Below, piece by piece: positions 15,829 to 50,004 of a stretch of DNA of 64,000 nucleotides. Position numbers and translations under genes: made by a program. The first letter of the stretch is position 1; each line of letters opens with the position of its first letter. The notes below the pieces were generated by a model. The model was not told where the DNA came from, searched no databases, and worked only from the letters and a program-made list of their open reading frames with translations. This stretch comes from Hydractinia symbiolongicarpus (taxonomy: Eukaryota; Cnidaria; Hydrozoa; Anthoathecata; Hydractiniidae), in assembly GCF_029227915.1 (NCBI RefSeq), contig NC_079876.1, forward strand, positions 11,160,001-11,224,000. The letters are read 5' to 3'.

Positions 15829-18165
15829 CTATTTTATCTGGAGGGGGGACAAGTGCACTGACTGTTTGAGACTATTTTCACGAAATCTAGTCGGAAAATA
15901 GTGATTTATTAGCTCAAAACTATTGTGGAATGTTTGTGGTGCTAACTTATTTTTAACTTTAAACATGAAGATTAAGTGTTGATAGATAGTTATTTGATAA
16001 ACATTAAGCGCCTTTAAATCTTTCATAAAATGCCTTGAGTGAGTGCCATGATCCTGGTGGTAAATTATCCTAGTTGCTTGTTTTTGTTTGCTCAGAATTG
16101 GTTTTAATTTGGTCCTGTGTGTACTTGCCCATGCAATGTTTGCATAGTTTATGTACGAGTGAATTAGTGAGAAGTATATGTTTTTTAAACACATCTGGTT
16201 CAAAATAGATTTAGCTCTACAAAGAATACCAATATTTTTCGAGATTTTGTTTTCTACCAATTCAATATGTTTATTTCAAGTAATATTTTGATCTAGGATT
16301 ACTCTAAGGAACTTACTTTCTGTTTCCCTTTCAATTTCTATATTGTTTATTGCTAATTTTGGTAGTTTTAAAGGATTGTGATCTCTTCTACTAAATTTGT
16401 GAAAAAAAGTATATTTCGTTTTTTTTATATTTAAAGACAATTTGTTTGCACGGAACCACTCATTTATATCGATAAGTTCCGTATTTACAGAATCGAACAA
16501 ATCCTTTATGTTGCTATGAGAGTAAAATAAATTCGTGTCATCTGCAAACATTATTGGATCGAGCAATTTTGTAGCTCGTTTCAAATCGTTTACGTATATT
16601 AAAAATAAAAGTGGGCCTAATATCGAGCCTTGAGGTACTCCACAAAGTATGTGTTCATTGTCAGTTTTACCTTTTTCATAGCTTATAAACTGTTCTCTTT
16701 GAGAGAGATAACTACGAAACCAATTGAGTGATATGTTTCTGATACCACAAGATTCGAGTTTTTTTATTAGAATTTCGTGATCTACGGTGTCAAAGGCTTT
16801 TGATAAATCTATGAATACACCTATTGTATATTTATTTTCATTAAATGACCGGAGTATTTGGTCAACAATTGCATGTTCAGTAGCATGTGCATGTTAAAAT
16901 CCAAACTGTTTTTCATATAGAATGTTATGCTCTAAAAGAAATTTATATAATCTATTGTACATGATACGTTCAAGTACGGATATTGGTCTAAAGTTTGTTG
17001 GTAACGAGTCGTCTCCAGTTTTAAAAATTGGAGATACTCGTGCTATTTTTAGTTGCTCGGGAAAAATACCTTCTCTTAGAGATATCGAAAAAATGTGTTT
17101 TAGTGGTTCAAATAGTTGATCTTGACAGTTCTTAACTACATTCGAACTGATATCGTCATATCCTGGACTTTTGTTAATTTTAAGAGAGAGGAAAGCATCA
17201 GTTATTTCTTTATCAGTCAATGTTTCTTGCTTCATGTTTTCTTGATTTCTGTTTATATACGCGTCAAATTTTCGCTGAGTGTTAGGAATTGCTGATGCAA
17301 GTTTAGGTCCGACATTAACGAAGAATTTATTGAAAATTTCAGCTATTGTTTTAGCGTCTGTTATTTCTTCACCATTTGAAATCAGTCTCTTTGGGAATGA
17401 ACTTACTGTCTTTTTTTTCCCAATAACTTATTTAATAATTTGCCATGTTTTTTTAATGTCAAACTGATACTGTTTTAGTCGATTTGCATAGTGTTGTTTT
17501 TGTGATTTTAGTTTAATAGATTCAAATTAGGTTTTATATGCTTTATAATTATCCTCGTTCAACATAGTTCTCTTTTTAAGGAATTTATCGTATAATTTCT
17601 GTTTCCGCTTTGACGACTTTATGAGCCCTCTTGTCATCCACGGACTTAGTAAAGATTTAGATTTTGCTTTTATTTCTTTTATTGGAAATGTTTTATCATA
17701 TATTGAGAGAAATAATTTAAGAAATTCGTTGTAGGCTATGTTTGCATCACTTATGTTTTTGATATAGGACCAATCTACGTTACTTAATTTTTCTTTGAAA
17801 ATTGCAATTGTTTTGTCATTTATATTTCTTTTATATATTATTTGCGAGTCTGATTTACGGTTCACTTGCTGAGATCGCGTGATCACAAAAATTGGAAAAT
17901 GGTCCGAGATATCAGTCTTTATGATACCTGCACTTGTTTTATCATCTAGATTTATATTAGACAACACGTGGTCAATTAAAGTGGCACTCCTTCTTGTTAC
18001 TCTAGTTGGCTTGTTAACCAGAGGAAAAAAACTTCTTTCGAAAATAAAATGTATAAATTTTTTAACTTTTGCATTTGTTTCGTGATCTAAGAAGTTTAGG
18101 TTCAAGTCACCTACAATATAGGTTGGTTTATTATTCAGATTTAGCGAGGCGTTGCGTCTCAAAAA
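15829..18165 (-). pseudogene. 5'-truncated non-LTR retrotransposon ORF2 (CR1/L2-like)
   Basis: A single minus-strand frame runs about 778 codons and is broken only by four nonsense codons (17527-17529, 17428-17430, 16894-16896, 16276-16278), with no frameshift. It begins inside the AP endonuclease (IVGDLNLNF, TLIDHVLSN, DISDHFPIF). It then has the reverse transcriptase with VSPIFKTGD, FIDLSKAFDTVDH, GVPQGSILGPLLFLIY and the catalytic FADDT, followed by a C-terminal domain. The lost 5' end and few lesions point to a recent insertion that was dead on arrival by truncation. Clade is inferred from the endonuclease wording and is not certain. Confidence 0.88.
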
Positions 18166-33468: not shown

Positions 33469-34476
33469 ATGTCTTTCGCAGAATCTAGTCAGATTTTGAT
33501 GTCATGCACGCCAGTAGAGAGTCAAGTTACAGAATGTGACAAAGAATTGTTTATAGAGGAAGTAAGTAGAGCTTAGCTAGCTAGCTAGATTATTTTTCTA
33601 AAGCTAAACTTGGTTATCTGTTTTTTTGTTTGCCATAGTCAAATAACTATTTCTAAAACATTTGTAGGTTCGGAAATTTCCATGTCTATGGAACATTTAT
33701 TCTACTGATTACAAAGACAGAAACATCAAAAATAATGCATGGCAAGAATTGGCAAGAATATTTCAAAAAGATTGTAAGTAAACCCCTACTATCTCATAGC
33801 TACATATATATTTGCTGTTGTTTTTATTTTCAGAAAGAAAGTAAAATCACATAATTTTTGGAATCTGATATTAAATATATACTGTGTATATATATATGGC
33901 TTTTTATTATTTGTAGGCGAATTCCTTCAAAAACAACTAAAATATTAAAAAGACAACCTGAAAAAATGTCTCGACAGAAGAACAAGGATGACAAAATCAG
34001 GTGCAGCTGCTTCGTCGTTACCAAAATGTAACTATTTTGAACAGATGTCCTTTCTTTATGAAAGAGCACTTATGAACTTCCCAACTGAAAGCAATGTACG
34101 GATACAGAGTAAAGAAAATACAGAACAAACGTGTTGAAAGGAAAGCGTTGATCAACCCCCTGATGTAGATTTGTTCACACCACCACAATCTCCTATGATT
34201 TTGAACAAAATTACGGACAGTGGCAGCGCTACTGTTACGGCAAAGCGGGAGAAAAGAAAACGTAGTGAGAATGCAGAAGGAAATAGAATTTCGAAAGAGT
34301 TGGATGCAATAGAGAAAGAATTAAAAGCTGGTGATAAAGAGGAATGTGAAGATAGTCTTTTTTCCCGTAGCCTAGTGCCCACTTTAAGAAAATTATCTGC
34401 CAAGAAGAACAAAATGGCAAAAATTAAGATTTCGCAGCTGTTGTTTGAAATTGAGTTTGATGAGGCATGTGAATAA
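33469..34476 (+). pseudogene. Harbinger second protein: MADF domain with BESS-like C-terminus
   Basis: Exons 33469-33552, 33669-33774 and from about 33919. The MADF domain reads ELFIEEVRKFPCLWNIYS, then DRNIKNNAWQELARIF, then the C-terminal half CLDRRTRMTKSGAAASSLPK. An in-frame TAA (in LKY-stop-KDNLKKC) and a TGA near 34136 break it. The tail at about 34380-34460 has SLVPTLRKLSAKKNKM, like BESS or Harbinger Myb-like tails. In this superfamily the second protein binds the DDE nuclease and carries it to the nucleus and the DNA ends. Confidence 0.8.
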
Positions 34477-34883
34477 AACTAATTTTCTCTTTAACATTTT
34501 TTATATAACATAACATTTTTTACAGTATTTGTATGGATGTACATGTTCTATACATGTTGACATAAATTATTCAGTTTTTATTTTGTCCTGTACTATTGAC
34601 AATATCCCACTGCCATTCTACTGCTCCTTCATTGTTGAAATAGCATTTAAATTCATCCCGAATTAAGGCTGCCTGTTTTGAATAATTGTTTGAACTACAA
34701 TTTGTTAAGTCCTGAATACCACTGATACTTTCAGAGTCTTTTCTCCATTCACCTGAAATAATATTGTTTTGGCTTCCTCTATCAACATAGTTTTCTGGGC
34801 AGTAATTATAAGTATTATTTGCATTGGAAACAGTCATTAAGTAGTTGTGTAATGCCACCACTGCTTTAGTATTAATACCTTAA

Positions 34884-35085
34884 GGGAACTTATTTTGGCG
34901 GGAACTAATTTTGGCGGATTTGGCGGATTGGGGCAAAATCCGCCAAAATTAGTTCCCGCCAAAATTAAATATTTTACTCACCCGCCAAAATTAGTTCCCG
35001 CCAAAATTAAAAAAAATCGCCACCCGCCAAAATAAGTTCCCGCCAAAATTAAAAATTTCGTTGATCCGCCAAAATAAGTTCCCCT
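34884..35085. promoter_or_regulatory. left-end array with four E2F-core octamers
   Basis: GGCGGGAA at 34897-34904 and TTCCCGCC at 34953-34960, 34995-35002 and 35037-35044, each within a CGCCAAAATTAGTTCCCGCC-like unit. TTTGGCGGGAA is a classical E2F/DP site. The repeats may equally be transposase binding sites. Confidence 0.6.
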
Positions 35086-35193
35086 TAAAAAATCGACAAA
35101 AATCAACTTTTTTTCAATTTTTTATATCTTTTAGAAATATACCTTTGCGCTAGAAATATTATGTCATAATAAACCTCTAATACAAGATAATTT

Positions 35194-35844
35194 TTAATCA
35201 ATATTTATGATTTCTAAGTCCTTGCTTGACGATGGTGACGACTTTTTAGGTTTGTTGTTAACTTTTTGCCTTTTTGGGGCTGGTGCAGCTGAGGTGTTTC
35301 CAAAAAAGTTTCGAATATCTTTTTGCTTTTTCGTCTCTTTGCTTTGGCTTTTGGCTGTATTTTTTTTACGCTTTGGTCTCTCTTCGGTTGGAACCACGAC
35401 ATCTAAAATAACTGCAATATGTAAGAACGAACCAAGAATCAATTCCTCTTTCGGCTCTGTATACAAGGCTTCTACAAGTTGTTGGTATCTTGCAAGAACC
35501 AAAAGATTGTTTACTGTCCCTGGTAAAGTAACAGTTATTTTACAGGGGATCTCCAAGCCTCCTTGAACGAGAGGTGATCTTCGATAGTGTACACTTGTCA
35601 ACGTGGATTTCATAGACGCTCCTCTGTCCAGAAGAAATTTTGTAACCCTTGAGATTTCTTTGGGTAAATGGCCAACTGGTTTGTCATTTCCGAATTCACA
35701 AACTTTGATTGCAAATCTATCGAAAACATTGTTGTTCTCATGAAAGCAGTCCAGTGATTGATTTTCCTCAGGTTTCCAATAAGTTTTATAATAATGGAAT
35801 CCTCTGACAGCAGCTGTAAACTCGAACGTCTTGTTGTAAGCCAT
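35194..35844 (-). CDS. HIRAN-domain protein with PIP box (transposon accessory)
   Basis: 216 residues, single exon, start ATG at 35844. The HIRAN domain spans about residues 6-110: FTAAVRGFHYYKTYWKP, then ENNNVFDRFAIKV, then GHLPKEISRV, the family's RG.xYY..W.P, NxyDxxAI and VGHLP motifs. In HLTF this domain binds the 3'-OH end of single-stranded DNA at stalled forks. The tail is basic (KRKKN; KRQKVNNKPKK, likely nuclear signals). Residues 174-181, QKDIRNFF, match the PCNA-interacting box Q-x-x-[ILM]-x-x-[FY]-[FY] exactly. It lacks the SNF2 helicase and RING of HLTF. It is transcribed away from the transposase, with a ~355-bp shared promoter region. Role in transposition is inferred. Confidence 0.85.
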   Translation of the reverse strand: MAYNKTFEFTAAVRGFHYYKTYWKPEENQSLDCFHENNNVFDRFAIKVCEFGNDKPVGHLPKEISRVTKFLLDRGASMKSTLTSVHYRRSPLVQGGLEIPCKITVTLPGTVNNLLVLARYQQLVEALYTEPKEELILGSFLHIAVILDVVVPTEERPKRKKNTAKSQSKETKKQKDIRNFFGNTSAAPAPKRQKVNNKPKKSSPSSSKDLEIINID

Positions 35845-35925
35845 ATGGACGTCTTTTCTTTTCTAGCTCTGATGAAAAACAAAAATGTCAATCGATCGAT
35901 TTTTTAATTGCCTAGCATGAAAATA

Positions 35926-36140
35926 GAACGTTTTTGTTCTATTTGTCAGTGTAGACCGAACTTTCCCAATTAAATAGAATGTTTTTGTTCGATTGGTTAG
36001 TCTAAACGGGCCTTAGCGAAGAAAAAAAGAATGTTTTTGTTCGATTGGGTAGTCTAAACGGGCCTTAGCCAAGAAAAAAAGAATGTTTTTGTTCGATTTT
36101 TAGTGTAAATATAGGCCAAGTGAATGGAATGTTTATGTTC
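35926..36140. repeat. ~56-bp direct repeats in the divergent promoter region
   Basis: Four or five copies of GAATGTTTTTGTTCGATT, two followed by GTCTAAACGGGCCTTAGC. They fill the gap between the HIRAN and transposase start codons, so they are candidate control sites for both genes. Confidence 0.8.
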
Positions 36141-36199
36141 GAGTAAATATACAGGATACAGATAACTTACGTTTCCTTTTTTATCTCCCGGCTTTCAAA

Positions 36200-38040
36200 A
36201 TGTCTTACATCAGGAAGTTAGCTAAATTACAAGAGAAAGAAGCTCAACAAAGGGCCGCTGAAAAGGAAAAAACTTCAGACGAAACACCTTCAAACAGTTC
36301 TAGGGAACAAAGTAAGTATTTCTCTTTGATGTTTTTTTTTGTTATACCTACCTGCGAAGAAGTTTCTTTCTTTGTTTGAAAATTTTTAATTTTTGGTCAA
36401 AATTCGCAATTACATAGTGGTTCGTTTTATTCATTTTAGGCCCACAACCAACTGACTTCCAGCAAGAATCATCCCTTGGTTCGTTAGACTACGAAGCTGT
36501 TACAGACGCGACTGAAAATGTTAAATCCAGTGGCAAAAAATCATACAACCGTTGGTCAGAAAAAGAAAGATTTGATATCGGAAAATATGTTGCGATTCAT
36601 GGTGGTGCGGCTGCAATCACAAAGTTTCAAACCAAAGACAGGCCGTTAAGTGAGAGTACAGCTCGAAGATTTGGCAATCTTTACAAAAAAGAGCTGAAAG
36701 ATTCAACCCGAGAAAAACGTAGCGTGGTAACCAAATTTGTTCCTTTGAAACGCGGTAGACCTCTGTTCCTTGGCAGTCTAGATGAGATGGTACAAAGATT
36801 TTTAATTGCACTGAGAAATCGAGGAGGTGTTGTTTCAAGAACAGTTGCAACCGCTGCAGCGAAAGCTCTAATATCACGAAACCCTCAATTTGAGTTGGGG
36901 CATATTAAAATTGATAACAGTTGGGCAAAAAGCCTCTTCAAGAGAATGGGTTTCAAGAAAAGAATGAAAACGACCTCCAAAGTTGAAATCACTGAAGGAG
37001 CCAAAAAGGAGTGCGAATTACTATTTCTTCACGATATTGTTTCGACCATCGAACAACACAGCATCCCTCACCAACTTGTTATGAATCTGGACCAGACACC
37101 TCTTAAGTTTGTTCCAAGAATGAATCACACCATGGCGAAAAAGGGTTCATCGTCCGTCCCTATCGTTGGATCTTCCGACAAAAGATGCCTTACTGGTACC
37201 TTTATTATTACGCTTGATGGTTCTTTTCTGCCAATGCAACTGATATATGGGGGGAAAACAAATCAAAGCCTCCCAAAGTTTGAATTCCCCGAATCGTTCT
37301 CACTAAGCGTTAATCCCAAACACTACAGCAATACACAAGAATCCATCAAAGTCATCAAAGAGATCGTTCTAAAGCACGTTGAAGACCAGAGGAAGAAGTT
37401 AAATAACCCAAAGCAAGCTGCTCTTCTAATATTCGATGTCTTTCGAGGACAAATTACTGAGGAAGTTACCGAATTGCTGAAGAAGAACAACATCTTCCTG
37501 GTTTTGGTTCCAAGTAACATGACACATATATTCCAGCCCTTGGATCTTACTGTGAATAATCATTGCAAGCAATTCATGAGAAATTTGTTCACTGAATGGT
37601 ATTCAAAACAGATCGAGAAAGAGCTATCCCTTAACAAAAAGATCGAAGATATAAATATTCAATTAAAGCTGACCACCATCAAGCCTCTTCATGCAAGTTG
37701 GCTCCTCCAGTTTTATAACCATATCACTTCGGCAGATGGCCGTGAAGTCGTTTTGAATGGGTGGAAAGCATCTGGAATTTACGACGCAGTTCGCATGGGA
37801 TCCACTTCACTTGAATCCCTTGACCCTTTTCAAGATCTATCACCGCTGCCAGAAAGCAATAGTGTAATTACTCAGCCCATAACCGACATAATCAATGCGC
37901 CAGATTTATTAAAGGATAGCTTCATCAACGTGCGAGTCGAAAATGACGATGACAAAGAAGAGGAGTACACGCGTGACGAGGATGACATAGACTTTAGTCG
38001 GAATGCATTTGACATTATCATAGACGATGAAGAAGAGTAG
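36200..38040 (+). CDS. pogo-like DDE transposase (DD35D)
   Basis: Two exons, 36200-36311 and 36440-38040 (GTAAGT...TTTTAG, phases agree), 570 residues. The N-terminus has a short coiled region, then a psq-like helix-turn-helix (about residues 70-120: WSEKERFDIGKYV, STARRFGNLYKKEL) and a CENPB-type DNA-binding region (KRGRPLFLGSLDEMV, WAKSLFKRMGFKKR). The DDE_1 core has Asp255 in MNLDQTPLKF, Asp370 in LIFDVFRGQ and Asp406 in FQPLDLTVN; the last two are 35 residues apart. The C-terminus is strongly acidic. Uninterrupted and with all three catalytic residues, it is plausibly functional. I chose the ATG at 36200 because the longer exon-2 frame has no ATG near its start and the splice restores phase. 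Confidence 0.9.
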
Positions 38041-38134
38041 ATTTTTAGTATTTGTTTTAAAATTCTTTGCTTTGTAATGCTTATTTCTACATCTTTACCA
38101 AAGAAAATTTTCGTTGAAATTTGAAAAAATCCTT

Positions 38135-38349
38135 CACTCGCCAAAATTAGTTCCCGCCAAAATTAAAAAATCCGCTGACCCGCCAAAATAAGTTCCCGCC
38201 AAAATTAAAAAAAACCGCCACCCGCCAAAATAAGTTCCCGCCAAAATTAAAAATTTCGTTGATCCGCCAAAATTAGTTCCCGCCAAAATTAAATTTTTTT
38301 TAGATTTCCTTCGTCCGCCAAAATTAGTTCCCGCCAAAATAAGTTCCCT
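38135..38349. promoter_or_regulatory. right-end array with five E2F-core octamers
   Basis: TTCCCGCC at 38151-38158, 38193-38200, 38235-38242, 38277-38284 and 38328-38335, a spacing of 42 bp (last 51). The units are in the same orientation as most of the left array, so they are direct repeats layered on the short terminal inverted repeat. Confidence 0.6.
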
Positions 38350-39169
38350 TAAGGTACAACTTTGTCGACTTTACTTATGATGGGTCGGCGAAGAATTCGA
38401 AAGCGGCTTGCAGCAATTCCAAATACATTTTCTACTACTCACCGCGCTCTTGAGAGCCTATAGTTGAATACTCGCTTTTCTTTTGCCAAGTTTTGAAGTG
38501 GGTACGGTTTCATCATGTGAGGTTTCAGCCCAAAAGCATCATCACCTATGAAAGTAAAAGGCAACACACGATTTGACTGTGGTAGTTTTGATGCTTTTGG
38601 AATTTTAAGTAGATTATTCTCAATGCTATAGCCAAGATTGCTGTTTCCATACACACTACCATCACTTTGTCTTCCTGTATCTCCAATATCTACCATTAGA
38701 AATTTATAAAGTGCACTGCACACTGCCATAAGCACAATACTGTGTTGCTTTTTATAATTAAAGAATGCTGAACCTGATCTTGCTGGGGGCTGCATCACAA
38801 CATGCTTTCCAGCGATTGCCCCTAAGCAATTTGGAAAGTTCCATTTTTTATAAAATTCCTGAGCTACATGTTGCCATTCTTCTGGGGAGTTTGGAGGTTT
38901 AAGATCCCCCTTCTGCTTTCGTTCTTGGTAAATTTGGCGTATCCAGAATCTTTTTTTATATTTCCTATTATTTATTTCATTTTCTAATGCCAACAATTTC
39001 AATAGTTTAACTTTTTTAAGAAGAACTAATCGGCGACTGAACTTTATGGTGTTGTTTGCATAATGGCGCCGTGCTTAGTGGAAAAATAAAATGCGTTTTG
39101 CGAGACGGAAAATATCCTCTGCGCTGAACGCTCCGCACGGAATAATCCGCCTAGTGGAAAACCGGCTTT

Positions 39170-40879: not shown

Positions 40880-41048
40880 GAATTGCGTGAACTATTTTGG
40901 AATTGCGTGAAGTATTTTTGGAATTGCGTGAAGCATTTTTGGAATTGCGTGAACTATTTTTGGAATTGCGTGAAGTATTTTTGGAATTGCGTGAAGCATT
41001 TTTGGAATTGCGTGAACTATTTTTGGAATTGCGTGAAGAATTTTTGCG
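40880..41048. repeat. 21-bp minisatellite array A (8 units)
   Basis: Unit GGAATTGCGTGAAGTATTTT. Read as heptapeptides ELRExF the variable residue runs L,V,A,L,V,A,L,E, a three-unit higher-order repeat. The same family forms a second array at 43661-43876. Confidence 0.92.
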
Positions 41049-43650: not shown

Positions 43651-43660
43651 ATATTGATTG

Positions 43661-43876
43661 GAATTGCGTGAAGTATTTTTGGAATTGCGTGAAGTATTTT
43701 TGGAATTGCGTGAAGTATTTTTGGAATTGCGTGAAGTATTTTTGGAATTGCGTAAAGTATTTTTGGAATTGCGTGAAGTATTTTTGGAATTGCGTGAAGT
43801 ATTTTTGGAATTGCGTGAAGTATTTTTGGAATTGCGTGAACTATTTTTGGAATTGCGTGAAGAATTTTTGGAATAG
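43661..43876. repeat. 21-bp minisatellite array B (about 11 units)
   Basis: Same 21-bp unit as array A. Variable residue order is nine V units, then L, then E. The final L,E pair is the same as in array A. Confidence 0.92.
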
Positions 43877-45080: not shown

Positions 45081-45245
45081 GATTCCGAAATAGACGATAT
45101 CGCAGTTGCCGTAAAATTTGAACTGCGCAAAGCATTCTGGGATCGTTCTGGGGATAAACATTATCTAGCGCTGTGAGAGTAGCCATTTTAATATTGATTT
45201 TCATATGAGCAGAGCTGTGTTACTGAGATTTCTATAAATACATCG

Positions 45246-47600
45246 ATGGAATTGAATAAAAATGAAAGTACTTTCAACTTAGATGGTGATACAAATGTTG
45301 TCGATGTTTTACTACAAACGTTTGGTGTGAAAGGTTTGAAAGCTGGGCATGATGTAGCTTGTAACTTCGCTGCTTGGAAGTTGTCTGAATTAAAGTTGTT
45401 TTTGAAGATTAGTGGGAAGTTAAAGGGATTGACAAATGCCAAAAAACAGAAAGTTCTAGAAACAGTCATTTTAACTTGGAAAAAATTAAACTATATTCAG
45501 CTTTCATCAACAATGACGGTGAAGGAAAATCAAGATGACACTGATGCTGCTGCTCCTTCAGCAGCTATACTTTTGTCGCCTATACGAAAACCCATTCCTG
45601 GGGTAACAGCAAGCACACCTCGTGATCCTACGTTGAGATACCCAGACATAAAAGAAGGAATGTGCAAAGCCGATTTTGAAACATGGACGATGTCTCATCT
45701 ACAAGAATTTTTAGGAGACAGAAACATCAACCGAACTGGAAATAAATGCAGATTAGTGGAAAATGCCTTCGCAGCTTATAAATTGAATCTTGCAGTATCA
45801 GCAACCAATATTCAGGAAGAGAAAGAACAAATTAAGAGGGACGTTTCTGCTAAGCTGCTATTAGAGAATGGTTTGATGAGACTGCCCGATCCCACTACAT
45901 TGAAAAATGATTGGGTAGAAGCACCCATAAATCTGCCTGATACGTTAAATAACAATGTTACCGAGTATTTAGAAAAAAACAATGCTGGCAAAGCCTTCAA
46001 GGGAGGAAATTCGTTGTTACAGTCCGGTCATGTATCGAATGTCATGACACACATGATAAGTCCGAACATTCGTTATTGTTTTGTACGTGGTTCATGTCTT
46101 CCAGAACAGAAATTATCTAAAGATCCTTATTCTGTGTGGGTTTGCTTGCACAAAGATTTTGGTGATGTAATTACTGGTGATTGTAGTTGCACTGCCGGGT
46201 ACGTTTATTTTAACAATTTTGTAACCTGTTATTGTAGAGCCAAAATACAATTTTTTTTTGCAGGTGTAGTTGAAAAAAAAATTCAAGCATATGAAATATT
46301 ATCAATTTTTTTTAGAGTATCAGGTGTGTGCAAACATGTTGGTGGTTTACTTTGGTACATTGAGCGAGAAGTGAGACTGGGACATAATCAAACATGTACA
46401 TCAAAGAAGCAGCAGTGGAGTGTTCCGTCCAAGAAGCAGCTAAAATTGCATGTCCCTGATATATTAAATAACATCACAATAAAAAAACCAAAAGCTGAAA
46501 AAATTTTAAGTCCCAATGAAAGCTATGGACAAAATAGATTTCATTATGATCCAAGACATGTGAACGATCGTAGTACAGATTTACTTTACGAGAAAGATAT
46601 TAACGCATTAGCAGATGTTACGAATGGAAATTGTGGCATCGTACAGTTGATGCGTAAACGTTGTCACCATGATAATGCGGATGGAGAAATTATATCGAAT
46701 GTTGTAGAAATTTCAGAAACAGAACATGTTGAAACACCTATGACGGTTCAACAAAATTTTGAAAAAGTTGGTACGACATCCTTTGAAAATTTTACTAGCC
46801 ATTTGAAAATTAGTCCTGCACAGCAACTTCTTGTTCAAGAACTTACATCTAATCAAAGCAAGGATGTATCATGGTTTGAATACCGACGTGATCGTGTCAC
46901 AGCATCAAAGTTTAAAGACTGTTGTATAAAAGTTGATAATAACTTTGATATTATAAACCCCAAGAAAACACGTACTTTGATATCTAAAGTTTGCGGTTAC
47001 TATGATTCAAAATATCAATCGAAAGCATGTCGATGGGGCATAAATAATGAACCTGTCGCCAGAAAGATATACGAGAAGAACATGAAAAAATCTCATCGAC
47101 ACTTCAAAGTTATGGAACCTGGATTTTTTATTGATATGGCATATCCATTTATTGGTGCAAGCCCCGATGGATTAGTTAGTTGTAGTTGTCATGATCCTGG
47201 CTTATTAGAAATTAAGTGTCCTTGGACTCATCGTGGATTGAATATACCTGAGTATGCCTCGAAGAAGGATTCATGTTTGGAAATTGTTGGCGTAGATATT
47301 AAATTAAAACGTAAACATACATATTTTTATCAGATGCAGTGCCAAATGCATGCAACCGGAAGGAACTGGTGTGATTTTTTTCTTTGCACCACGAAAGACA
47401 GTTTTGTTGAAAGGATTATGTTTGACAAAGAGTTTTATGATATGGCTGTTCGAAAAGCCACAGTCGTGTATAAGGAGTTGATACTACCTGAAATATATAC
47501 TAGAGACTTATGCTATACATTGCATGTGGAGAAAGAAGTGAAGGAGACTGTCGCAGATATTGTTGATCATGTTACTATTGCTTTATCTAATACCTCATGA
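45246..47600 (+). CDS. SAP-SWIM-YqaJ-like nuclease of an ISL2EU element
   Basis: The reading frame is open for 784 codons, but an intron (46199-46315, GTACGT...TTTTTTTAG, 117 bp) interrupts the SWIM finger; splicing gives 745 residues and restores C-S-C-T-A-G-V-S-G-V-C-K-H (CxC...CxH). The N-terminus has two SAP-like helix pairs (AAWKLSELKLFLKISGKL; WTMSHLQEFLGDRN), expected to bind DNA. The C-terminal third is YqaJ/lambda-exonuclease-like: WFEYRRDRVTASKF, WGINNEPVARKIYE, GASPDGLV and LLEIKCPW. These give the PD-(D/E)xK residues Asp602, Glu616 and Lys618 (spliced numbering). The last helix has YFYQMQCQMHATG. No lesion is seen, unlike its partner. Because the intron length is divisible by three, a retained-intron form would also be open. 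Confidence 0.88.
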   Translation: MELNKNESTFNLDGDTNVVDVLLQTFGVKGLKAGHDVACNFAAWKLSELKLFLKISGKLKGLTNAKKQKVLETVILTWKKLNYIQLSSTMTVKENQDDTDAAAPSAAILLSPIRKPIPGVTASTPRDPTLRYPDIKEGMCKADFETWTMSHLQEFLGDRNINRTGNKCRLVENAFAAYKLNLAVSATNIQEEKEQIKRDVSAKLLLENGLMRLPDPTTLKNDWVEAPINLPDTLNNNVTEYLEKNNAGKAFKGGNSLLQSGHVSNVMTHMISPNIRYCFVRGSCLPEQKLSKDPYSVWVCLHKDFGDVITGDCSCTAGYVYFNNFVTCYCRAKIQFFFAGVVEKKIQAYEILSIFFRVSGVCKHVGGLLWYIEREVRLGHNQTCTSKKQQWSVPSKKQLKLHVPDILNNITIKKPKAEKILSPNESYGQNRFHYDPRHVNDRSTDLLYEKDINALADVTNGNCGIVQLMRKRCHHDNADGEIISNVVEISETEHVETPMTVQQNFEKVGTTSFENFTSHLKISPAQQLLVQELTSNQSKDVSWFEYRRDRVTASKFKDCCIKVDNNFDIINPKKTRTLISKVCGYYDSKYQSKACRWGINNEPVARKIYEKNMKKSHRHFKVMEPGFFIDMAYPFIGASPDGLVSCSCHDPGLLEIKCPWTHRGLNIPEYASKKDSCLEIVGVDIKLKRKHTYFYQMQCQMHATGRNWCDFFLCTTKDSFVERIMFDKEFYDMAVRKATVVYKELILPEIYTRDLCYTLHVEKEVKETVADIVDHVTIALSNTS

Positions 47601-48265
47601 AAAGAAACTTCTTGTACATCATTTTTTTGTTAATATTTTGAAGTAAAAAGCTCTGAACATATTATGACATTATTTCCTCAACCCCTTTTGATTCTTACTT
47701 AGTTTATGATTCCTATATTTACTCATATGGACCGAACTTTACCGTGAACGCCTTGCGTTAGCCTTTCTATATTCTTAACCTTCCAGTCGTTGATTCTCGC
47801 TGAGATCATATTACGCAACTTATTTCTCGTTATCGAACTGCGCGCTGTCATGATTGGTTCAAATATAAAAGCCTTGTCCTGATTGGCTGAATAAAAAATA
47901 ATACGAGACATTATGTCTCGGCAGTTTGAGAAGTCGGCCTGAGTTGTTTTGATTTCCACGGCGCCGAGCCTTACCGTATTATCTGATTGGTCTAAAAGAA
48001 ATGAATGTCGCGCTCTGATTGGTTTAAACTAAGACGAGAATTACGGGACTTTATAAAATATAAACAAGACAAGCGCAAGCTGAATCAAAGTTTTGCATAT
48101 TTCGAGAATCGATTGAGATTTCCCAGGAAAAAAATAAGATTCTCAGACAAGTTTGAAAATTCTGTAACCACGAAAGTAGGACGTGAACAAATGTAGGACG
48201 TGAAAGATCACACAATGGAATATATTAACAATTTTTTTTCTTGAAAATACCTAAGGTTAAAACAT

Positions 48266-49803
48266 TTACAATGGCACAAGAGGTGGAGCTAAGTTAGTGA
48301 TGGCAGCACAAATGACAAAAATATCATCCAATAAATCTTTCATTGTAACTGGTATTGCACCTTGGAGTATACGAAAGTCTTTGATTCGAGCTATTGCCCT
48401 TTCCACGTGTATTCTAGCCTTAGCTATATTAGAGGTTCGATTGCAGTTTTTTCTGGTAAAACGAATTTTATCCTTCAAGAACCGAGGAATAATCAATTTT
48501 GATCCTCTTCCAACCAACAGATCACTTATATTAAAACCTTTATCTGCCATCAAGTTGTCACCGGGGTTAATTTTCTCAAGAATGCCACAAGTTTCTGTTA
48601 TATACCGATCTGAAGCACACCCACCATAGCATTTTGAAATGAACGAAATTGTTCCACAAGGTGTGATCGACAACAGTTTTTTCCAAGTATTTTTAGATTT
48701 GTATGAAGAATACGTTTGAGCTTGCGCTTTGGCTAAACTAGGTTTTTCTAGTCCACCTTCCGTACAATCTATAATGCCGATGGTGTTTGGAAAATCCTTG
48801 AAGCACTTGGGGTAGCATCCATTATTTTCTTCTCTGGAAGGCCAATATATCAAACATTGAAGTTCTCTGGATAAAAATGGAATCCACGTACTAAGCACTT
48901 GAGACAGTGCTTTGAGAAACATCAAAACGATAACTCAGGTCTCGTTCTACTAACCCCAGCCGAAGCCTTATGAGGGTCATAAATAGTTCACTTTTTGTGT
49001 TGAGTTTCCTTTTTGGTCCTGTCTTTTTTCTGTTCGAATTACTTTTTGAATAAGAGGTTTCTCCCTTGAAGTAACTGAGCTTCTCAGCTTTTGGTTTTAT
49101 ACGGTTGTATAACCATTCAAACACACCATAATTTTGCAGTCCGGTATACAGGCTTATCGCTTTATCGTCATTCTTGATTTCGTCTATTGAAAAAGGTTTT
49201 TTTACATGTAAACCTGATTTTAAATCATTGTTTTCATTTATCAATTCTTGAATTTTTATTTGTTGACGTATAATGGTAACAGTTTTGTTTCGCTTCGAAG
49301 TGCACGAATCACAATTTTCATAAATTTTACTACGAGAACATTGTTCATTATCTATGGCGTTGTCATAATCATGGCCGTTCAAAAAAGGTGTTTGTGATGG
49401 TACGTCGCATAAATTTACCACCCCGATTCAAAGCCTTCTCCCAGCTTTTAGCATCTTTCTCAGTTTTAGGAGAATGCCATCGTAGAATGCCAACATGAGA
49501 CATTATGATCAACCTGAAGAAGTGAAAATAAAAGAAGACAGATTAAAAATGAAGCATTTAAGCAAAATTCCTAGCATGGGTATTTGTATGACTTGAGTTA
49601 TCAAGCATCCAAAGAGCTGAAATAGACTGATAAACCACAAATAGTTCAAACAAACATAGAAAACACTGTCATTGAATATTTGTAGAACTTGCTTTGCCAG
49701 CTAGCTAGCTAGTGTGGGAGAGTTATATATATTAAACTCACTTATCGGGACTGTTTCTTCCATTACTGCATCCATATACAGCACAGTAATCATTTTTACC
49801 CAT
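48266..49803 (-). pseudogene. ISL2EU THAP/DDE transposase, frameshifted
   Basis: Exon 1 (49742-49803) starts the THAP finger: MGKNDYCAVYGCSNGRNSPD. Exon 2 begins at 49513 (MSHVGILRWHS, WEKALNRGGKF). A frame change near 49440 leads to a coiled region and helix-turn-helix (LSYRFDVSQSTVSS), and a second change near 48900 leads to the catalytic DDE_4 domain. That domain has IGIIDCTEGG (Asp), LMADKGFNISDLL (Asp) and IHVERAIARIKDFR (Glu). All three catalytic residues remain, so only two small indels separate it from an open gene. Sequencing error is possible. Confidence 0.82.
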
Positions 49804-50004
49804 AACGGTCCAAATTCAATAAAATATATCTTGCTAATAATGTAATAATGTACGAATAATGTAATCGATATCTTTCTTTACTCAAGGCAACGCTGTGAAA
49901 GACCGTAAAATCGCTTCGCTGTTTATTTTCATCCCCAGAACAATCCCAGAATGCTTTGCGCAGTTCAAATTTTACGGCAACTGCGATATCGTCTATTATT
50001 CCGA

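Follow-up and report, generated by a model that had tools for sequence, protein, structure and literature searches.

A pogo-like DNA transposon of Hydractinia symbiolongicarpus with a second gene for a HIRAN protein carrying a PIP box

Results

Organization of the Element and Its Insertion Site

The analyzed window (a stretch of 64,000 nucleotides of Hydractinia symbiolongicarpus DNA) contains a two-gene, cut-and-paste pogo-like DNA transposon that looks intact. Its transposase gene and an accessory gene coding for a HIRAN protein are divergent and lie within the same perfect terminal inverted repeats. The features of the element, in window positions, are as follows.

34878..38354, no strand assigned: whole pogo-like element; its length is 3477 bp with TA as the target duplication, and with TTAA it would span 34884-38348
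34878..34918, plus strand: left terminal inverted repeat, 100% complementary to 38314-38354; it contains a pair of half-sites 16 bp apart
34939..35083, plus strand: left subterminal array of 42-bp units, oriented as the right array; its final unit leaves the block at column 19
35194..35844, minus strand: accessory gene, HIRAN protein of 216 aa (Pfam HIRAN, residues 8-86, E 7.8e-08)
35302..35325, minus strand: PIP box QKDIRNFF, residues 174-181 of the HIRAN protein (pattern Q-x-x-(ILM)-x-x-(FY)-(FY))
35921..36127, plus strand: 52-nt repeat in four copies, lying between the divergent genes and matching the reference copy at 62-100%, from repeat analysis
36200..36311, plus strand: predicted transposase exon 1 with an ATG start, predicted from the sequence by in-phase joining to exon 2 across a GT-AG intron
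36312..36439, plus strand: predicted GT-AG intron of 128 bp, from in-phase exon joining
36440..38040, plus strand: transposase exon 2 with DDE_1, a sub-threshold HTH_Tnp_Tc5 (both from Pfam profiles), a DD35D triad placed by eye and an acidic C-terminus
38137..38304, plus strand: right subterminal array of four 42-bp units, from repeat analysis
38314..38354, minus strand: right terminal inverted repeat, from its inverted-repeat match to the left end

The segment that holds the 52-nt copies (35921..36127) is the probable promoter region of the two divergent genes. With the flanking TA counted in, the inverted repeat is perfect over 43 nt (34876-34918 and 38314-38356). The earlier note on this DNA had placed the element at 34883..38349; the element itself stood, and the perfect inverted repeat reaches slightly further on both sides (34876-38356).

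Both flanks carry TA, and TTAA is likewise present on both sides, within the CCTTAAGG palindrome. The element interrupts a minus-strand Harbinger-like transposase gene (DDE_Tnp_4). The N-terminal side of this gene (38439-39074) matched DDE_Tnp_4 with an E value of 1.1e-13; the C-terminal side (34571-34837) matched no Pfam family and was assigned to the split gene by frame, since in the joined flanks its frame terminates the gene as would be expected, and partly by what we take to be its end motif. Rejoining the two sides at TA shifts the frame, and rejoining them at TTAA preserves it and leaves one stop. Since a further stop is already present nearby, the split gene is decayed and does not settle the choice between TA and TTAA. 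A TA duplication is the likelier one, though the split gene gives it no support, because pogo elements use TA and because TTAA needs four extra chance matches per side. The splitting of a decayed Harbinger-like gene identifies the element as an insertion. An ORF with a BESS motif lies at 34195-34476, beyond the C-terminal side of the interrupted gene, and an ISL2EU-like element is located in the same window at 45089-49997. A search of all 64,000 nt against Rfam at gathering scores returned no matches.

Transposase Gene

The predicted spliced transposase is 570 aa long. DDE_1 (PF03184) was detected in it with an E value of 3.4e-10 (40.2 bits, cut-off 22), and a DDxD triad was placed by eye at D255, D370 and D406 of the predicted spliced product, with 35 residues between the last two. 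These matches bear out the pogo-like DD35D transposase that had been read from the sequence earlier. The DD35D spacing falls within the range given for the pogo superfamily in the available part of PMC7386202. HTH_Tnp_Tc5 stayed below threshold (E 0.034, 14.6 bits versus a cut-off of 22.2); the Pfam rows for FR47 and DUF6488 were also below threshold and were discarded. Searches of NCBIfam at E values up to 0.1 retrieved no families for either the HIRAN protein or transposase exon 2. Calculated from base composition for a single given frame, with no correction for how many frames there are, a stop-free run of 540 codons has a chance of 1e-16 and one of 222 codons, the corresponding run for the HIRAN gene, a chance of 2.6e-07.

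HIRAN Protein and Its PIP Box

HIRAN (PF08797) is the sole Pfam match in the 216-aa accessory protein and scores 32.5 bits against a gathering cut-off of 24.7. A search of solved-structure sequences, in which the E limit was raised to 1, returned six rows, of which five were HLTF HIRAN chains aligned weakly (E 0.0073-0.01) and the sixth, a VapC ribonuclease (E 0.53), is unrelated. Residues Y72 and Y93 of HLTF flank a dinucleotide pocket, as described in the accessible text of PMC4666394. In the weak HLTF alignment, numbered by hand, these residues are aligned with Y18 and F41 of the HIRAN protein, so both pocket positions are still aromatic. The same weak alignment, with the same hand numbering, places H17 at the position of HLTF R71. 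A fold prediction made without an alignment for residues 2-216 was poor (mean pLDDT 35.5), and the model supports no claim.

The basic tail of the HIRAN protein contains the sequence QKDIRNFF (residues 174-181), a strict match to the PIP pattern and the sole match to Q..[ILM]..[FY][FY] among the stop-to-stop stretches of at least 60 aa in the six frames of the window, which together comprise 20,457 residues. Shuffled sequences matched the pattern at a rate of 0.00012 for the last 66 residues and 0.0065 for the whole HIRAN protein, rates that apply to a motif picked by a reader who already knew the sequence. An APIM-like RFAIK at residue 43 lies in the HIRAN core and was discarded by judgement as part of the fold. 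The transposase has no PIP box by either the strict or the relaxed pattern; clamp binding would therefore reside on the accessory HIRAN protein. Thus, the HIRAN domain, the canonical PCNA box and the location of that box on a separate accessory protein, all claimed in the earlier note, were each recovered. The note had also mentioned PCNA binding by the Drosophila pogo transposase, and this is in print: the consulted portion of PMC5371812 lists the transposase among PCNA interactors and describes its PIP box as conserved in Tigger and Lemi1. The same portion calls the functional relevance of PIP boxes in pogo-like and Ac/Ds elements unclear.

Octamers and Terminal Repeat Arrays

Exact octamers TTCCCGCC/GGCGGGAA occur nine times in the window, against an expectation of 0.41 per window, and none of 100 shuffles reached nine. 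All nine lie inside the element, as had been proposed for its two ends. Every one of them sits in a 29-bp block that recurs each 42 bp and consists of two GCCAAAAT half-sites 16 bp apart. DNA has a helical repeat of 10.5 bp, and the 42-bp period is close to four helical turns. The element carries 19 half-sites (17 on the plus and 2 on the minus strand), nine of which include the octamer.

A table of alignment columns was built from seven complete units out of nine. Within the block (columns 2-30), 28 of 29 columns are invariant, and the 10 adjoining columns (31-40) are all variable. The two omitted units, at 35065 (truncated) and 38314 (terminal), deviate at 8 and 3, respectively, of the 28 invariant columns of the block. 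The left and right arrays (the right one taken as 38139-38281) share 134 of 143 bases, with the nine differences confined to columns 11 and 31-40, a pattern tied to the column table, whose columns were defined from the same units. A near-copy of the right terminus closes the left array.

Eighteen of the 19 half-sites fit TTTSSCGS, which we take to be the E2F consensus, and 19 of the 23 matches to this presumed consensus in the window fall in the element. When the 29-bp block was shuffled, 0.2% of the shuffles matched TTTSSCGS and 0.008% matched the octamer. The E2F likeness of the block is real but post hoc. Since the nine octamers are copies of one repeat, conserved over the whole block, they amount to about one event, and a reading of them as nine independent E2F signals is ruled out. 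A promoter role for the two genes is likewise not supported. All nine octamers are downstream of both stop codons (150-290 bp beyond that of the HIRAN gene or 111-288 bp beyond that of the transposase), each start codon is at least 800 bp away, and conservation of the octamer is not separate from that of the surrounding block. The count of three independent signals with which the element had been introduced does not hold, as the octamers are part of a longer conserved repeat situated downstream of both genes. Transposase-binding repeats that chance to fit E2F would be the simpler reading of the octamers.

Searches for Relatives

Scans with six 8-residue patterns each, which reach close relatives, found no relatives of the HIRAN protein, the whole transposase or a 62-aa piece of it in a viral contig collection and none of an 87-aa transposase piece in bacterial and archaeal genome contigs. 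The element end pattern had no relatives in either the viral or the bacterial and archaeal contigs. As these collections cover viruses, bacteria and archaea, the absence of relatives says little.

Discussion

From the domain and the motif, we infer a helper role for the HIRAN protein. The reading that we put forward, tentatively and with a probability of about 0.4, is that this protein may act as a clamp-tethered helper of transposition that binds 3′ ends, with the block serving as the transposase site and the E2F likeness being secondary. According to this scheme, the transposase would bind the arrays of 29-bp blocks and then cut; the HIRAN protein would bind the 3′ DNA ends that excision leaves or those found at forks, and its PIP box would tether it to PCNA. 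Transposition or donor-gap repair would thus take place where PCNA is loaded, and a gain of copies during replication would be favoured. The E2F likeness of the block would be a by-product or a secondary gain.

A helper role is suggested because the HIRAN match is above the cut-off, the pocket aromatics are kept and a PIP box is improbable in the tail by chance; the long stop-free frames of both genes (222 and 540 codons) count in its favour as well. The PCNA tether gains from the pogo-family precedent in PMC5371812, as far as the available text of that paper goes. The block is the candidate transposase site because it is invariant in 28 of its 29 columns next to columns that vary. Alternatively, one array may recently have been copied to the opposite end, which could account for this conservation. 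The helper reading is weakened by the fact that the element is known here from one copy, as well as by the histidine at the position of HLTF R71, and a domain match is no proof that the protein would bind ends. We also count against it that the HIRAN domain of yeast Rad5 works without a PIP box, as stated in the part of PMC13050448 that was available.

The HIRAN gene may instead be a captured host gene, a passenger that adds nothing to transposition and owes its PIP box to a host repair protein, which we consider somewhat doubtful. The single known copy is compatible with a passenger, and HLTF, which is a HIRAN protein, is a host factor of post-replication repair according to the available text of PMC4666394. 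The left array looks as though it had been copied from the right one, and it has the near-copy of the right terminus at its end; this copy of the element has therefore been rearranged on the side of the HIRAN gene, which also fits a passenger. Against this stand the location of the gene inside perfect terminal repeats, its open frame and a domain that scores above the cut-off.

More doubtful still is an extended form of the helper reading, in which the transposon encodes a dedicated replication-clamp adaptor: the HIRAN protein would both grip 3′ ends and bind PCNA, coupling excision, insertion or gap repair to replication, and the end repeats would double as transposase and E2F sites. A role for the HIRAN protein in regulation or against the host, for example in shielding excised ends or competing with host fork-remodelling enzymes, but with no PCNA-guided targeting, is quite unlikely. 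HIRAN domains do bind 3′ DNA ends in fork remodelling, as stated for Rad5 in the accessible part of PMC13050448, and the HLTF domain has its dinucleotide pocket (PMC4666394, available in part); however, such a role would leave the PIP box unexplained.

S-phase timing and fork guidance of the element, as proposed in the earlier note, are what one might infer from its motifs. A complete wiring to replication, with host E2F driving S-phase expression through the end octamers and the HIRAN-PIP protein steering integration to forks, is very unlikely: the half-site fits, the concentration of matches in the element, their rarity in block shuffles and the transposon-amplified motifs of Brassicaceae that are able to bind E2Fa (PMC12595863, available in part) speak for it, but the octamers lie beyond both genes, far from the start codons, and are conserved only with their block, many transcription factors could be fitted post hoc, and the Brassicaceae case, in the text at hand, concerns host regulation and not the timing of an element.

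The element bears on the question of whether eukaryotic cut-and-paste transposons exploit replication via PCNA. If clamp binding and DNA-end binding reside on a separate gene, removal of one gene would allow this question to be tested. In the open literature, leaving Repbase and subscription papers outside the scope, we found no paper with both "HIRAN" and "pogo" as whole words and, for "HIRAN domain" combined with transposon or transposable element, no title on a eukaryotic HIRAN-carrying transposon. The word "HIRAN" is absent from the main texts of PMC7386202, PMC7325037 and PMC9976928. HIRAN-carrying elements may already be described in subscription papers or in Repbase. The pairing of a transposase with a HIRAN and PIP protein is unusual; accessory genes in DNA transposons as such are already known, as the available text of PMC4482050 describes.

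Comparison with Known Systems

The HIRAN protein resembles HLTF and Rad5 in its profile match and in the aromatic residues kept at the pocket positions; unlike these proteins, it is 216 aa long and has HIRAN as its sole Pfam match. According to the part of PMC13050448 available, yeast Rad5 needs no PIP box to bind PCNA, whereas a PIP box is present here. ISL2EU and PIF/Harbinger elements are also DNA transposons with a second gene, which codes for YqaJ or Myb/SANT proteins described in the accessible text of PMC4482050 as having no known function; they differ from the element studied here in both transposase superfamily and accessory domain. The spread of E2F-like motifs through transposon copies has a parallel in the MITEs of Brassicaceae (PMC12595863, available in part).

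In its transposase, the element resembles the pogo superfamily (Passer, Tigger, Fot, pogoR, Mover and Lemi, within IS630-Tc1-mariner), with which it shares DDE_1 and the TA beside its ends. In the available part of PMC7386202, members of this superfamily have one or two ORFs and are described as encoding transposases; the element of H. symbiolongicarpus adds a HIRAN and PIP gene and arrays of 42-bp units. A PIP box in a pogo-like element is also known from Drosophila pogo (PMC5371812, as far as available), where it is in the transposase; the one described here is on a separate protein.

Ends and internal repeats of the pogo-like element

The outermost inverted-repeat bases of the pogo-like element form the palindrome CCTTAAGG at both ends (34876-34883 and 38349-38356), so the target duplication can be read either as TA or as TTAA. 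The left end also has strong hairpin potential at 34892-34965, with arms of 33 nt, 97% complementarity and a spacing of 8 nt.

The left array of subterminal units (34939-35090) has the same orientation as the right array and is closed by a near-copy of the right terminus. This arrangement would fit a copying of the element's right end to its left side.

Between the divergent HIRAN and transposase genes, at 35921-36127, a 52-nt repeat is present in four copies; the motif CCAAT occurs once in this region and ATTGG twice.

Other repeats and mobile elements in the window

Non-LTR retrotransposon pieces lie at 16276-18165, where a reverse transcriptase match (E 3.1e-25) is accompanied by an endonuclease match scoring under the family cut-off, and the frame is interrupted by an internal stop. 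Two separate minisatellite arrays, at 40880-41046 and 43658-43874, have one 21-bp unit in common.

A second DNA transposon with two genes was also found:

45089-49997, whole element, inverted repeats of 73 nt (96%)
45198-47600, plus strand, YqaJ ORF
48266-49427, minus strand, DDE_Tnp_4 and HTH_Tnp_4 ORFs in two overlapping frames

Except for a THAP domain, for which no match was found in 45089-49997, this transposon agrees with the published description of ISL2EU, a known group with a YqaJ accessory gene (PMC4482050).
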